From Atlanticothrix silvestris CENA357 (GTDB taxonomy: Bacteria > Cyanobacteriota > Cyanobacteriia > Cyanobacteriales > Nostocaceae), in contig NZ_JAECZB010000022.1 in NCBI RefSeq assembly GCF_016056295.1, positions 1 through 64,000 on the forward strand: 64,000 bases of DNA, given 5' to 3'. The notes beneath the pieces were generated by a model, which ran no database searches, had not been told where the DNA came from, and saw only the letters and a list, made by a program, of their open reading frames with translations. A program made the translations under genes and the position numbers. Of this stretch, positions 11,000-59,871 are shown one piece after another. Every line of letters begins with the position of its first letter. Position 1 is the first letter of the stretch.

Positions 11000-12025
11000 T
11001 TAAAATCGTGTCAAAATAGCTGACTCGCGATCGCATTTACTACCTTGACAAAATTCATCTACCCAAGAAGTTAAACTACGAGCATTAGTGCTAGTAGATA
11101 TATTCACTTTTTGGGGAACTTCTGATCGTTGCATGTTTATATGTTGACCGTTATTTTGCACCTCTTTAGCTAAGGTAAGTGTTGATAGGGCTTTGTGATT
11201 ACTGGGCAGATCATCTGCTAATGCTAATGATGGTAAAGTTTTAGCTTTGATGGGAACATCAGTAGTAATGGTCAGCGATGCTCCTGAAGCAAGTCGTCCA
11301 CAGGGTCGCACATGTTTACCATTTCTGGAAACCTCGGTGGTGATTATCAAGGATGTTCCTGAGGGAAGCCGTCCCAAAGGTGATAGTACAGTGTTAGCCA
11401 GTCGACGAGTGTCGCTCGTTCGCCCCTGGCGTTCTTGAGGGATAGAGTTTGTCACCAGATAGCGCACTGGTTCATTTTGTCGTAATAACCCAGAGGGTGA
11501 CTTGGCGAACTGTGGAGCCTTGACACCAGATTTTACAGCAACTGTAACTAATGGTACAGGTCTAGGTGGGTGAGCAACTTCTGTTGTAGCTATTAATGTT
11601 GGCACAGCCTGCTGCGTGTTGGGCAGTTCGACGGGTATTTTTTCCGAGTGTTGTATCTCAACAGGAGTGAGGGGTGTAAGCAATTCACCCTCAGAACATT
11701 TTTCCTGTGACAACTCACTTTCGGCGTGGTTTGTAACCAGAGAATCTTCTACTTTTAATAAACTTAACTCTTCATCAGGATTAAAATTAAGACCTAAAGC
11801 TGTGATTATCTCATCGGGATTGTTGTTTAAATCCAGAATAAAAGGCAGTATCTCTTCAAACTGTGGCTCTAAAACAGATAGAGTAGCCAAAATAAACCCA
11901 GACGATGGCCGTCTCAGTTGATCATACGTACCCCAAACTCGTATTTTGGCTAGCCAAGAACGATTTTGCTCGTAGTAACTCAGCCACTTCAGTTTCAAAG
12001 ATTGACGTAGCTGCTGAATATTCAT
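11000..12025 (-). CDS. DUF5331-like protein with repetitive C-terminal tail
   Basis: The first 90 residues match, by eye, the protein encoded between chlL and chlN in this window (57612-58367). Shared points are a basic helix with KWL and a following aromatic pair (WLSYYEQN versus WLQFFQVN), RRPSSGFILATLSVLEP versus KRPPSYLILGVVNALEP, a LMLPF/ILPF helix and LNFNPDEEL versus LHFDPDIAL. Both therefore belong to the DUF5331 family, whose function is not known to me. From about residue 100 the protein is a low-complexity linker, and residues about 215-290 hold an imperfect tandem repeat around GRLPSGTSLIITTEV and GRLASGASLTITTDV. I use the ATG at 12025, preceded by GCGAGG, over a TTG seven codons upstream. 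It is followed by no clear operon partner and lies 4 kb from the nif block. Confidence 0.75.
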   Translation of the reverse strand: MNIQQLRQSLKLKWLSYYEQNRSWLAKIRVWGTYDQLRRPSSGFILATLSVLEPQFEEILPFILDLNNNPDEIITALGLNFNPDEELSLLKVEDSLVTNHAESELSQEKCSEGELLTPLTPVEIQHSEKIPVELPNTQQAVPTLIATTEVAHPPRPVPLVTVAVKSGVKAPQFAKSPSGLLRQNEPVRYLVTNSIPQERQGRTSDTRRLANTVLSPLGRLPSGTSLIITTEVSRNGKHVRPCGRLASGASLTITTDVPIKAKTLPSLALADDLPSNHKALSTLTLAKEVQNNGQHINMQRSEVPQKVNISTSTNARSLTSWVDEFCQGSKCDRESAILTRF

Positions 12026-12206: not shown

Positions 12207-12533
12207 CTAGGGATGAAACCGATAATAAAGCATCTGTTTGACCCTTTGGCCACCTAATAGATGTTGTTCTACCACTAGAGGTACTTCTTGCGGTCGAACG
12301 CCACTATACCAGACCATATCGGGTAACACTAAAACCATTGGGCCATTACCACATTGTCCCAAACAGCCACTAGCTGTTATTGCTATTTCAGGGACTGATA
12401 ACTCTACAAAAGCTGCTAACACCTTTACTGCACCTTGCTTTTTACAGGTGCGATTTTGGCACACACGCACGCATTTAGAAGAAGAAATTTGGTCTGTTTG
12501 GGGAAAGTTTGATGATTGAATAATATGAGTCAT
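12207..12533 (-). CDS. thioredoxin-like [2Fe-2S] ferredoxin
   Basis: This 108-residue protein has the thioredoxin-like ferredoxin cysteine pattern: CQNRTC (Cys25, Cys30) and GCLGQCGNGP (Cys57, Cys61). That is the C-x4-C ... C-x3-C arrangement that holds a [2Fe-2S] cluster in this family. Such proteins are found as electron carriers near nitrogenase and hydrogenase genes and as C-terminal domains of NuoE and HoxE. It lies between the DUF5331-like gene and cysteine synthase, all on the minus strand, and close to the nif block. A second protein with the same cluster type is encoded at 19800. The electron partner is unknown. Confidence 0.85.
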   Translation of the reverse strand: MTHIIQSSNFPQTDQISSSKCVRVCQNRTCKKQGAVKVLAAFVELSVPEIAITASGCLGQCGNGPMVLVLPDMVWYSGVRPQEVPLVVEQHLLGGQRVKQMLYYRFHP

Positions 12534-12865: not shown

Positions 12866-13840
12866 CTAATCTACTGAAAGTCCTTTTGAAGCTAGCCATT
12901 CACGGTTAAATATCCGTGACTGATACCGGGAACCACTATCACATAAGATAGTGACGATAGTATGTCCTGGGCCTAATTGCTTTGCTAAGGCAACAGCTGC
13001 TCCAACGTTAATACCCGTTGAGCCACCCATTAACAGCCCGTCTTTTCGCAGGAGTTGGTAAACAACTCGCAAAGCTTCTGTGTCATCTATTTGAATGGCA
13101 TCATCAGCGGGTGCGCCTTCCATATTGGTTGTGACGCGACTGTTACCAATGCCTTCGGTGATGGAATTGCCTTCCATTTTGATTTCACCTGTTTTGACAT
13201 AGCTGTAAAGACCACTACCCAACGGATCGGCAACAACGCATTTGATTGCTGGATTTTGTTCTTTTAGGAACAACCCCACGCCAGCAAAAGTACCACCAGT
13301 ACCAGTTGCAGCTGTCCATGCGTCAATTTTACCATCTGTTTGTGCCCAAATTTCTGGCCCTGTCGTTTCGTAGTGGGCGCGGCGGTTGGCTAAATTATCA
13401 AATTGATTGGCCCAAATTGCGTTCTCCATCTCGCCAGCTATTCTGCCAGATAGTTTGACGTAGTTGTTTGGGTCTTTGTAGGGTACAGCAGGGACGGGAC
13501 GAACTTCTGCTCCTAGTGTCGTCAGTGCGTCTATTTTTTCTTGTGACTGGGTATCGGGAATTATAATTAGGCATTTGTAGCCTTTAGCATTACAAATATG
13601 CGCCAGGCCAATGCCAGTATTACCAGCAGTTCCTTCTACAACAGTACCACCGGGTTTGAGTAAACCTTTTTGTTCTGCGTCTTCAATAATGTAAAGTGCA
13701 GCGCGGTCTTTGACAGAACCCCCAGGATTGAGAAATTCTGCTTTTCCAAGGATTTCGCAACCTGTTTCTTTACTAAAGCTGTTTAAGCGAATTAGCGGTG
13801 TGTTGCCAATGGTGCTGATAAATCCATCTTTGATATCCAT
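12866..13840 (-). CDS. cysK: cysteine synthase (O-acetylserine sulfhydrylase), PLP-dependent
   Basis: This enzyme makes cysteine from O-acetylserine and sulfide with pyridoxal phosphate. The 324-residue protein starts in register with the family (IGNTPLIRLN). It has the PLP lysine in NPGGSVKDRAA (Lys44), the substrate loop EGTAGNTGIGLA, the phosphate-binding glycine loop TGTGGTFAGVG and a C-terminal DSGSRYQSR block. GTAGNTG in place of the commoner GTSGNTG marks a subgroup that includes cysteine-lyase-like and CysK2 forms, so the donor could differ. The O-acetylserine producer NifP is encoded 2.3 kb away on the opposite strand, so the pair could supply cysteine for Fe-S cluster assembly. Confidence 0.9.
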   Translation of the reverse strand: MDIKDGFISTIGNTPLIRLNSFSKETGCEILGKAEFLNPGGSVKDRAALYIIEDAEQKGLLKPGGTVVEGTAGNTGIGLAHICNAKGYKCLIIIPDTQSQEKIDALTTLGAEVRPVPAVPYKDPNNYVKLSGRIAGEMENAIWANQFDNLANRRAHYETTGPEIWAQTDGKIDAWTAATGTGGTFAGVGLFLKEQNPAIKCVVADPLGSGLYSYVKTGEIKMEGNSITEGIGNSRVTTNMEGAPADDAIQIDDTEALRVVYQLLRKDGLLMGGSTGINVGAAVALAKQLGPGHTIVTILCDSGSRYQSRIFNREWLASKGLSVD

Positions 13841-14284
13841 TTTGAATGTACCTGAGTTCTTGTCTATAAAAATTTTGGCTTATAAGGGTGGCAGGTTTTA
13901 CAGATGTTTCACTTAAAATGCCAATATGCGATCGCCTATTTCTATCTTAAATGTCGCAAGCAGACTGGGACACTGTAGAGTCCGAGATCTCTGCTTGGCG
14001 CATGGAATCCTATTGGCTTGAGTAGGACGAATGTATTCTTTTTGACAACAAGCAACCTCATGAAGTGTCTGTTTTTTCAGGCTGAAGGTGGAGTATTTGC
14101 AAGGAAAGAAGATTAAATTTAGGGTAGCAAGAGATAGCAAAATTGGTTGTTTTGCCAGATAAAAACGCAATTGGTGAGATAATCCCAAGAGGATATCCTA
14201 AAGTGATGCTTACATAAATCTTTTGAGTGAATTAAAGCTTTAGATGTCTATAACAGTACTTTAATTATATTTAGGATAACGCTT
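13841..14284. other. divergent intergenic region, cysK / methyltransferase relic
   Basis: This 444-bp region lies between genes that diverge from it. Apart from one GCGATCGC site near 13929 I see no repeat, RNA or strong promoter match. A 91-codon open frame on the minus strand (13913-14188) has no family resemblance and is not called. Confidence 0.4.
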
Positions 14285-15012
14285 GTGACTTCCCCTACTG
14301 AGCTAGAACTAAAAATGTATGAAGCCTATGATGCAGGCTATCAAATCTTTCTGGAAAACTGGCAGGTAAATCGCCAAGTTGCTCTCGATTTGATCCAAAA
14401 ATACCTGAAGCCACATCCTCCACAAGTAGCAGTGTTAAGTGTAGGGGCTGGGCCGGGTGAGTTTGATGTGCAGGTAATACGTACTCTGAAGCAACAGCTA
14501 CCCAAAGAATTAACACTTCGTTACGTAGCTGTTGAACCGAATCATTTACATCGACAGCGTTACGAACAAAAAATCAACGTTCCAGAGTTTGCCGATGTTA
14601 AATTAAAGATTTATCCAGAAAAAATAGAAGAGTTTCAGACAGATGAAAAGTTCGATATTATTCACTTTACCCACTCAATGTATCACATGCCCGATCATGA
14701 GAAGCGGCAATGCTACAAATGGAAAAAATGCAGACAATTGTTGAAGAACTTGGATTGTCGTATGAATTAGTAAATTATCCAGAATATATGGATGTCAGGC
14801 TTTGCTTTGAAGAGAATTCTCATGGGGGGAAAGCGTTAATGGATTTCTTCTGTCAGGCTGACTCGAATTTACTTTCTCGTGAACAGCGTGAAGAAATTTT
14901 ATATCTGTTAGCGTCTAAGGTAACTCAACAAGACGGACGTAAACTGGTACCTATCCCTGCTGCAACAATGATGATTCCTAAACAAATCATCAATGATAAA
15001 TATTATACTTAA
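14285..15012 (+). pseudogene. broken SAM-dependent methyltransferase (histamine N-methyltransferase-like)
   Basis: The 5' part (GTG at 14285) encodes a class I methyltransferase N-terminus with the SAM loop VLSVGAGPGEFD, the acidic ribose-binding strand YVAVEPN and FDIIHFTHSMYHMPDHEKR. At about 14705 the frame breaks. The C-terminal part of the same family continues in a different frame from 14710 (TIVEELGLSYELVNYPEYMD, then NLLSREQREEILYLLA). Between the two, the segment that normally carries the KPGG-type strand and surrounding helices, roughly 50 residues, is missing. A deletion plus frame change therefore inactivated the gene. The flanking halves are still well conserved, so the event looks recent. 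Confidence 0.75.
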
Positions 15013-16080: not shown

Positions 16081-16188
16081 CCTTAATCAATCCAATAAAT
16101 CCAATCGACATTGGATGTACTGTCCAGTTGGGAGCCACCTGATATAAGCAGAAAAATAACACATGGCTCTTTCAACCAGACACTACCG

Positions 16189-56153: not shown

Positions 56154-56714
56154 TGTCTTGCAGTCAAAGCTTTTAATTAAATTGAGCTAATATTTCAAAA
56201 TTAATAATTTTTTACACCATCGCCCCAGATATCTAAAAGACAGCAATCATATATTCTTGACAGTTAAATAAAACCTGCCAAGAAAATCCTTCTGTACAAA
56301 GGTGCGGCAGTATTTGCAGTATGGGTTTGCCAAGATCTCATATCACCTTGAGATCCAGCTTATCTTCCTTGGTTTCTATTTGTCTAAGCATAAGCTAAAT
56401 CTATGAAAAGCATATATTACAAGCAATTTAAGAGCGTTTTTTTTTGTAACTATTTTTATAAAAAAAGTTTTCTAAAAACATTTTTAATTGATTTAAAAAC
56501 TAAATTAGCGTTTTTGAATGGTTTTTGTCTAAATAAAATCATTTTTAATCTTGTATAAGTCGAATAAAATCGTTTTAGAGATTACAGCCCCCTTTCTTTT
56601 CCCTGTGATTTCGACAATAATGACACTTACGTACCTCATACCGACATCTGAGGCTAGGTGAAGGCAAATGCTTGAGCCACGAGTTTGACAAAAAACTATA
56701 AGAGGCAAACAACA
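56154..56714. other. AT-rich region upstream of chlL
   Basis: 561 bp between the Trp-rich protein and chlL. The part from 56430 to 56580 is dominated by T and A runs and contains two related words, AATAAAATCATTTTTAATC and GAATAAAATCGTTTTAGAG. They may be a tandem operator-like repeat upstream of chlL. No gene, RNA or clear promoter was identified. Confidence 0.45.
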
Positions 56715-57581
56715 GTGAAACTAGCAGTTTACGGAAAAGGTGGGATTGGCAAATCCACAACTAGCTGTAACATCTCAGTCGCCCTAGCCAAACGCGGCAA
56801 GAAAGTCCTGCAAATTGGTTGCGACCCTAAACACGACAGCACTTTTACCCTCACAGGGTTTTTGATTCCGACAATTATCGACACTCTTCAAGAAAAAGAC
56901 TATCACTACGAAGATGTCTGGCCTGAAGATGTAATTTATAAAGGTTATGGCGGTGTAGATTGCGTGGAAGCAGGTGGGCCACCAGCAGGTGCTGGATGTG
57001 GCGGCTACGTAGTTGGCGAAACCGTAAAATTACTTAAAGAACTCAACGCCTTCGATGAATACGATGTCATTTTATTTGATGTATTAGGTGACGTTGTGTG
57101 CGGCGGTTTTGCAGCGCCACTCAACTATGCAGATTACTGCTTGATAGTTACTGATAATGGCTTTGATGCTTTATTCGCTGCCAATCGAATTGCGGCTTCA
57201 GTGCGGGAAAAAGCCCGGACTCATCCACTGCGTCTAGCTGGTTTAATCGGCAACCGTACTTCCAAGCGCGACTTGATTGAGAAATATATAGAAGCCGTAC
57301 CAATGCCAGTTCTGGAAGTTTTGCCTCTAATTGAAGACATCCGTGTTTCTCGCGTTAAGGGTAAAACTTTGTTTGAAATGGCAGAGTCTGATCCATCTCT
57401 GAGCTATGTTTGCGATTACTACCTCAACATCGCCGACCAGATTTTGGCGCGTCCAGAAGGAGTTGTACCGAACGACTCACCAGATCGTGAATTGTTCTCT
57501 TTGTTATCCGATTTTTATCTAAATCCGGGTAAACCCCAGGTTCCTAATTCAGAAGAGGAACTAGACTTGATGATTGTATAA
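56715..57581 (+). CDS. chlL: light-independent protochlorophyllide reductase Fe-protein ChlL
   Basis: ChlL is the dimeric ATP-dependent reductase of DPOR and delivers electrons to ChlN-ChlB in chlorophyll synthesis in darkness. It is homologous to NifH. The 288-residue product starts [18 protein letters not shown] (P-loop). It has the switch region and the two [4Fe-4S] Cys in [10 protein letters not shown] and [12 protein letters not shown], and nucleotide-site NRTSKRD. The start is a GTG at 56715 with AGAGG upstream, which gives the standard N-terminus. The cluster is oxygen-sensitive. It is followed 30 bases later by the DUF5331 gene and then chlN; chlB is not in this window. Confidence 0.97.
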
Positions 57582-57611
57582 CATCATCAAGTTCTCAGGA
57601 TGAGGAACAAT

Positions 57612-58367
57612 ATGGCTTTCTTCAATAGCTTTACAGATTCAATAAGACAAAAGTGGTTGCAATTCTTCCAGGTAAACCATGACTGGATTACCTTGCACAT
57701 GAAAACTGAATCAGTGTACACCCCTGATGGCGGGAAGCGACCACCTTCTTACCTCATCCTGGGCGTTGTCAACGCGCTGGAACCGAAGTTAGCGCAGTTA
57801 ATGTTGCCCTTTTCCAAATTGAATCCTGACGCTGATACGCTGATTGAGGTGTTGGATTTGCATTTTGACCCAGACATTGCTCTAGGGAACCGTTTTATGC
57901 CTCCAGCCGAACCTGAGGTAGACCAATATGAGTCAGCAGCCGTCGGGAATGAAAACTCCGAAGATGAAACTTTGGCGATTTCCCATACAAATAGTTTTGC
58001 CAGAGAAGCAATGGCAATGGCTCAAGAGTTTGCCATCCAGGAAAGCCACAATGGACTGGGAGATATTTCCTTAACCAATGGGCACAACTCCAGTGATGAC
58101 TCTCATCAAGCATCTAGTATACAAGTAGATGATTTTGGTGATATTTCCTTTGATGCAACAACTGCAACCGAAGGAAAACTAGACGAGCAACTTCTTGATG
58201 AACTGAATACACAAGAAGAAAATGCCTTTAGTGACGTGTTATCAGATGTCTGGGGCGATCAAACAGCCTTGCACAAGGGTGAAGATAATAACGATTTTTT
58301 AGGGGAAGAACTACCAGCAGGCGTTTTTGATGAATCGGAGATTGCCCGTCTCTTCCCCAATGCTTAG
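57612..58367 (+). CDS. DUF5331 family protein encoded between chlL and chlN
   Basis: A 251-residue soluble protein. The N-terminal 90 residues form the conserved DUF5331 module (SIRQKWLQFFQVN, KRPPSYLILGVVNALEP, LHFDPDIALGN). The remainder is acidic and low in complexity, ending LPAGVFDESEIARLFPNA, a short conserved-looking tail. ATG 57612 has AGGA six bases upstream; a second ATG at 57600 is possible. It sits inside the DPOR operon, so it may help DPOR assembly or expression; that is inference. A paralogue of the module lies at 11000-12025. Confidence 0.88.
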   Translation: MAFFNSFTDSIRQKWLQFFQVNHDWITLHMKTESVYTPDGGKRPPSYLILGVVNALEPKLAQLMLPFSKLNPDADTLIEVLDLHFDPDIALGNRFMPPAEPEVDQYESAAVGNENSEDETLAISHTNSFAREAMAMAQEFAIQESHNGLGDISLTNGHNSSDDSHQASSIQVDDFGDISFDATTATEGKLDEQLLDELNTQEENAFSDVLSDVWGDQTALHKGEDNNDFLGEELPAGVFDESEIARLFPNA

Positions 58368-58375
58368 TTACTAAA

Positions 58376-59871
<1,496 letters not shown>

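Follow-up and report, generated by a model that had tools for sequence, protein, structure and literature searches.

The gene at positions 11000 to 12025 of the window (the whole 64,000-nucleotide stretch of Atlanticothrix silvestris CENA357 DNA analysed here) belongs to a lineage of DUF5331 genes that, judging from trees, profiles, and gene order, almost certainly arose within the chlL-chlN operon and now lies behind a cysK-ferredoxin pair in nearly all heterocystous cyanobacteria. What is new is the division of a known but uncharacterised family into two subfamilies, A and B, one of which has been relocated. As a whole, the observations are probably best explained by the move of an operon-born B gene to the cysK-ferredoxin locus, together with a role for DUF5331 as a DPOR accessory. 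The closeness of this copy to nif genes in the window is shown to be incidental.

Two DUF5331 genes in the window

The two genes and their neighbours are as follows.

11000..12025, minus strand: DUF5331 B-type gene, 341 aa from its ATG, almost certainly a displaced chlLN-operon gene (PF17265, 77.8 bits; B profile, 168 bits; clade of B and operon-B, 100/100)
12207..12533, minus strand: thioredoxin-like [2Fe-2S] ferredoxin gene, directly upstream of B (PF01257, 3e-5, just under the cut-off; NF041612, 3e-12, below the cut-off; 78 of 80 named loci)
12866..13840, minus strand: cysK, cysteine synthase A, upstream neighbour (NCBIfam cysteine synthase A, 2e-166; 73 of 80 named loci)
56685..57581, plus strand: chlL, DPOR reductase subunit (TIGR01281, 486 bits)
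57612..58367, plus strand: DUF5331 A-type gene, 251 aa, between chlL and chlN (PF17265, 165 bits; tree)
58435..59871, plus strand: chlN, DPOR catalytic subunit (TIGR01279, 654 bits)

In a profile search both proteins match the Pfam DUF5331 model PF17265 above its curated cut-off of 27 bits, the 11000 protein with 77.8 bits (E 6e-22, residues 2-103) and the 57612 protein with 165.2 bits (E 5e-49, residues 1-105), and they are the only two copies in this genome. They share 33% identity over 86 residues (pairwise BLASTP, E 2e-11), the likeness being limited to the N-terminal ~95 residues, with unlike tails. The original prediction took them for paralogues with common N-terminal landmarks, and all three landmarks are indeed present in the two proteins: KWLSYY and KWLQFF, RRPSSGFILATLSVLEP and KRPPSYLILGVVNALEP, and LNFNPDEEL and LHFDPDIAL. 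It was also right in placing one copy inside the chlL-chlN operon, where the 57612 gene is flanked by chlL and chlN, and the other ~4 kb from nif genes, the start of nifP being at 16111, a distance of 4.1 kb. Pfam PF17265 includes the window proteins and the operon copies of other cyanobacteria as members of one family; here it is split into subfamilies A and B, which differ in their C-terminal motifs and of which B has, in Nostocaceae, a second locus outside the operon. A search of the accessible literature found no paper mentioning DUF5331 or all5077, and no biochemical or mutant data on DUF5331.

Subfamilies A and B and the origin of the displaced copy

A maximum-likelihood tree of 94 domains (35 B-type and 59 A-type, the latter including the 57612 copy) unites the 11000-type copies of Nostocaceae, all 25 of them, with 10 genes of other families whose place is between chlL and chlN (100/100); the DUF5331 trees rest on ~100 columns and their deep forks are weak. 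Scores in a B-profile scan of 390 genomes of the class are bimodal, with B-type genes at 133 bits or more, the 11000 gene among them at 168 bits, and the other matches listed at 82 bits or less. Both genes are present at nine loci, always in the order chlL-A-B-chlN (L064, L066, L111 to L115, L127, and L136), and by their ChlL and ChlN sequences these two-copy operons belong to clades of three families (f18, f19, and f26). With the tree rooted on A, the Nostocaceae B genes are nested within operon-B (95/90), beside L102 (98/82), which argues that the displaced B derives from an operon copy. The scan of the class found no B in other sampled families of the same order, so that B may have come to the new site either by vertical descent or by horizontal transfer. 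Local dispersal of B from chlLN was considered but is not claimed; the two loci are ~4 kb apart in G144, but in several complete genomes the distances look unrelated.

Predicted folded domain and disordered tail

Features of the two proteins are as follows.

11726..12025, minus strand: DUF5331 domain, residues 1-100, predicted helices and beta-hairpin (AlphaFold2, mean pLDDT 90.9)
11084..11719, minus strand: predicted disordered, poorly conserved linker, residues 103-314 (AlphaFold2, pLDDT mostly 35-57)
11042..11068, minus strand: C-terminal motif SWVDEFCQG, residues 320-328 (D323, C326, and G328 nearly invariant in B and most operon-B proteins)
58326..58364, plus strand: A-type C-terminal motif FDESEIARLFPNA, unlike that of B (C-terminus comparison)

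The domain, modelled by AlphaFold2 over ~95 residues with 71 domains as input (pLDDT 90.9, pTM 0.81), is predicted to have six helices, the second of them followed by a beta-hairpin. No solved relative was found by sequence, and PDB searches with the domain model returned no match with E < 1 (Foldseek) or Z > 3.1. In the full-length model of the 11000 protein, residues ~110-310 are unstructured and a weak helix (pLDDT ~63) covers the C-terminal motif.

The 11000 protein carries an hDExCxG motif near its C terminus (WVDEFCQG, residues 321-328). A (W)hDExCxG ending is found at 79 of the 80 named Nostocaceae B loci, and most operon-B proteins likewise terminate in hDExCxG; the motif is absent from A proteins, which terminate in RLFPN, RLLPD, or other acidic tails. 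It is an independent feature in agreement with the A/B split of tree and profile. The variable tail of the 11000 protein (window 11250-11400) also contains two copies of a GRLxSGxSLxITT motif, one copy of which occurs in 8 of 87 other B proteins. Several families of the order have A-type proteins (L075, L087, L088, and L091) whose acidic, D/E-rich tails are very long; these proteins reach ~565 aa in all and end in EISxxLxDxx.

DUF5331 accompanies cyanobacterial-type DPOR

In nearly every non-Nostocaceae genome with DUF5331, the gene lies between chlL and chlN. The 57612-58367 gene and the operon-B homologues have this position; the 11000 copy is outside the operon, though its subfamily is an operon gene elsewhere. 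In Nostoc PCC 7120, all5076-all5078 are reported to form a single chlL-chlN operon that has a gene in the middle and shows a shared expression change (PMC7699953), the same arrangement as in the 56685-59871 block of the window, and from synteny we infer that the middle gene is A.

Among 224 genomes of the phylum, DUF5331 is found in 65, ChlL above the cut-off in 105, and NifH above the cut-off in 39. By raw genome counts, uncorrected for phylogeny, DUF5331 occurs in 63 of 82 genomes whose ChlL is of the cyanobacterial type and in one of 23 whose ChlL is of a divergent type (under 455 bits); in that single genome, G094, DUF5331 lies outside the foreign DPOR operon. DUF5331 appears to be dispensable, because 19 genomes with cyanobacterial-type ChlL have no match and most of the ones inspected have chlL next to chlN, usually with a gap of 12-350 nt. 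Hidden copies were sought in chlL-positive genomes without a match and are mostly absent, the one candidate being a very weak relative (L247, 14 bits). In Acaryochloris marina, chlN and chlL have the adjacent locus numbers AM1_1444 and AM1_1445 (PMC5295598).

In G168, a light-dependent protochlorophyllide reductase gene (L251:2397-3392; TIGR01289, 525 bits) is located between chlL and chlN, placing both protochlorophyllide reductases at one locus. Some genomes, among them G178 (L067/L071) and G136 (L070), carry outside chlLN a DUF5331 gene whose hairpin has an insertion of ~20 residues; the operon of G178 additionally holds three DUF5331 copies in tandem.

B lies behind a cysK-ferredoxin pair in Nostocaceae

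The minus-strand order in the window is cysK, the [2Fe-2S] ferredoxin gene, and the DUF5331 B gene; nifP, nifV, nifZ, and nifT begin 4 kb beyond, on the opposite strand. Across 80 named Nostocales loci of B with 5-kb flanks, the ferredoxin gene is upstream of B in 78, co-oriented and commonly separated by ~50-60 nt, and cysK is upstream in 73. NifV, nifZ, or nifT is near B at none of these 80 loci and in none of ~28 Nostocaceae genomes with wider, mostly 9-kb, flanks, and a cysE/nifP-like gene is near B at one of the 80. The cysK-ferredoxin-B arrangement is a conserved unit, and the nif neighbourhood is particular to the window's genome among those examined. The gene upstream of B resembles thioredoxin-like [2Fe-2S] ferredoxins (PF01257, NF041612/NF041613), scoring 47 and 46 bits with the two NCBIfam models, but their cut-offs of 150 and 195 bits are not reached and it is not assigned to these equivalogs.

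Outside Nostocaceae, the cysK-ferredoxin pair occurs without DUF5331 at 9 of 14 loci, suggesting that B was added to an older pair. Ferredoxin and B are linked yet separable: in G140 the ferredoxin gene has become a pseudogene, and in G146 and G165 no close copy of it was found, although these genomes keep B; G078 has the ferredoxin and lacks B; and G043 and G481 have neither. No RNA elements were found around the 11000 gene, and no NtcA sites in the interval from cysK to its upstream neighbour (13840-14285). Over the window as a whole (1-64000), NtcA-like GTAN8TAC sites number 20, against 10.7 expected and with 0 of 100 shuffles as high; several are within the nifP-nifT stretch.

B is present in 203 of 211 Nostocaceae genomes, and all eight without it have ChlL. 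The three Nostocaceae without a ChlL match (G041, G487, and G531) all have B; G041 and G531 are draft assemblies, and losses may be recent. In G041, chlL, chlN, and A are absent and all that is left of chlB is a fragment containing a stop codon; B is intact. In G094 (L099, G094:C1:3124000-3142000, and L098), the native DPOR has been replaced by a foreign chlN-chlB-chlL set without DUF5331; B is kept, and an orphan A sits between transposase-like genes. B can thus persist without ChlL, which is compatible with its having served ChlL earlier. Pairwise dN/dS for the B domain is ~0.07-0.19 (0.15-0.19 for G041 and 0.08-0.09 for G094), showing that B is under purifying selection. The ChlL and ChlN of the foreign DPOR are 54% and 33% identical, respectively, to those of the window, and a transposase-like gene lies between chlN and chlB in the G094 set.

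Proximity to nif genes

From the two locations in the window, the original prediction proposed a shared accessory role for DPOR and nitrogenase, in which A would serve DPOR and B nitrogenase, two homologous oxygen-labile reductases, as accessory factors. B is near-universal in the heterocystous family (203 of 211 genomes) and in the window is 4 kb from nifP-nifV-nifZ-nifT, as this reading would have it, but nifV, nifZ, and nifT are near B nowhere else examined. Among genomes outside Nostocaceae with cyanobacterial-type ChlL, nifH is present in 15 of 38 with DUF5331 and 7 of 19 without, with no association (Fisher p = 1; counts again uncorrected for phylogeny). B-type genes are found in chlLN operons of mostly non-diazotrophic genomes (nifH is absent from 8 of 10 operon-B genomes), and outside Nostocaceae nifH is lacking in 23 of the genomes with DUF5331. 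Some nif-bearing genomes lack B (G043, with intact nifH, and G078, with interrupted nifH), and eight nifH genomes lack DUF5331 altogether. For the 11000 gene there is neither conserved nif linkage nor a presence that tracks nifH; neighbourhood counts and co-occurrence together speak against a nif association of B, and a nitrogenase role is most improbable. A role common to two homologous reductases is not the pattern seen, because both copies trace to the chlLN operon. The survey of nif and DPOR presence thus divides the proposal: DUF5331 tracks cyanobacterial-type ChlL (63 of 82 genomes, with the chlL-chlN position), which strengthens the DPOR half, and does not track nifH outside Nostocaceae, leaving the nif half unsupported.

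An analogy can be drawn with the nitrogenase accessory proteins NifW, NifX/NafY, and NifZ, studied in Leptolyngbya boryana (PMC6428710), which are likewise small, non-catalytic, and encoded beside a nitrogenase-type enzyme. The likeness is one of analogy; those proteins are nif-linked, whereas DUF5331 is chl-linked. In ~10 Nostocaceae, nifH matches end after ~140 codons, most with an in-frame TAA (e.g., G018:C49:161034-161456 and G021:C1:4513206-4513625), which suggests a nifH interrupted by an excisable element.

Proposed function of DUF5331

DUF5331 could quite plausibly be a small, dispensable accessory adaptor or assembly factor of cyanobacterial-type DPOR, since the default home of both subfamilies is between chlL and chlN and the divergent type of DPOR is not accompanied by it. 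A folded domain followed by a disordered tail that ends in a short motif would suit an adaptor that holds or protects a component of an oxygen-labile reductase; the oxygen sensitivity of the ChlL cluster has been reviewed (PMC4500134). In the proposed history, the lineage would have had two neighbouring copies in a chlL-A-B-chlN operon, with A staying there in heterocystous cyanobacteria and B placed behind the older cysK-ferredoxin pair and under its control. Either ChlL or ChlN-ChlB would be the DPOR component bound by the N-terminal domain, and the tail would present its terminal motif to a second partner, RLFPN/RLLPD in A and hDExCxG with one conserved Cys in B, so that DUF5331 would aid assembly of the oxygen-labile DPOR, protect it, or feed it electrons. 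The move of B would have altered the timing of its production, with no nitrogenase job gained. Against a DPOR-accessory role stand the 19 cyanobacterial-type ChlL genomes without DUF5331, the retention of B where DPOR is gone, and the eight Nostocaceae with chlL and without B.

The main rival is a re-tasking in which B has left DPOR and serves the cysK-ferredoxin module instead, for instance by partnering the ferredoxin in a sulfur or iron-sulfur task through its C-terminal Cys. This is somewhat unlikely, although the tight co-oriented linkage at 78 of 80 loci, the intact B in genomes without ChlL, the joint absence of B and ferredoxin in G043 and G481, and the one nearly invariant Cys are all in keeping with it. 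B is nonetheless kept in G140, G146, and G165, where the ferredoxin is a pseudogene or no close copy was found, and is missing from G078, where the ferredoxin is present. The Cys is, moreover, not specific to the new neighbourhood, because operon-B proteins without an adjacent ferredoxin already have hDExCxG. A further reading, decidedly unlikely, is that B is a re-deployed DPOR factor, put under the cysK-[2Fe-2S] ferredoxin promoter in a heterocystous ancestor, that may couple the ferredoxin through the Cys motif to DPOR or another iron-sulfur reductase; if true, this would explain why B outlived DPOR in genomes that lost chlL. That DUF5331 is no enzyme accessory but a small regulator that binds nucleic acid and controls the chl operon is very unlikely: the helix-helix-hairpin order and a conserved R(R/K)RP-like basic stretch are suggestive, and winged-helix regulators (MarR family, Rex, and Rv1846c; Z 2.2-3.1) are among the weak structural matches, but these Z scores are at noise level and the Foldseek E values are all > 1.

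DPOR and nitrogenase are a textbook pair of homologous oxygen-labile reductases, and how cyanobacteria keep DPOR working while producing oxygen is a question still asked. With DUF5331 as a DPOR accessory, a conserved, uncharacterised protein encoded between chlL and chlN in about three-quarters of the surveyed genomes with cyanobacterial-type DPOR would be an obvious missing factor. The 11000 gene is a warning that nif proximity is not to be taken as function. The existence of two subfamilies, one of them relocated, means that in Nostoc B could mask the effect of losing just the operon copy, and the genomes that have lost or replaced DPOR are natural experiments on DUF5331.
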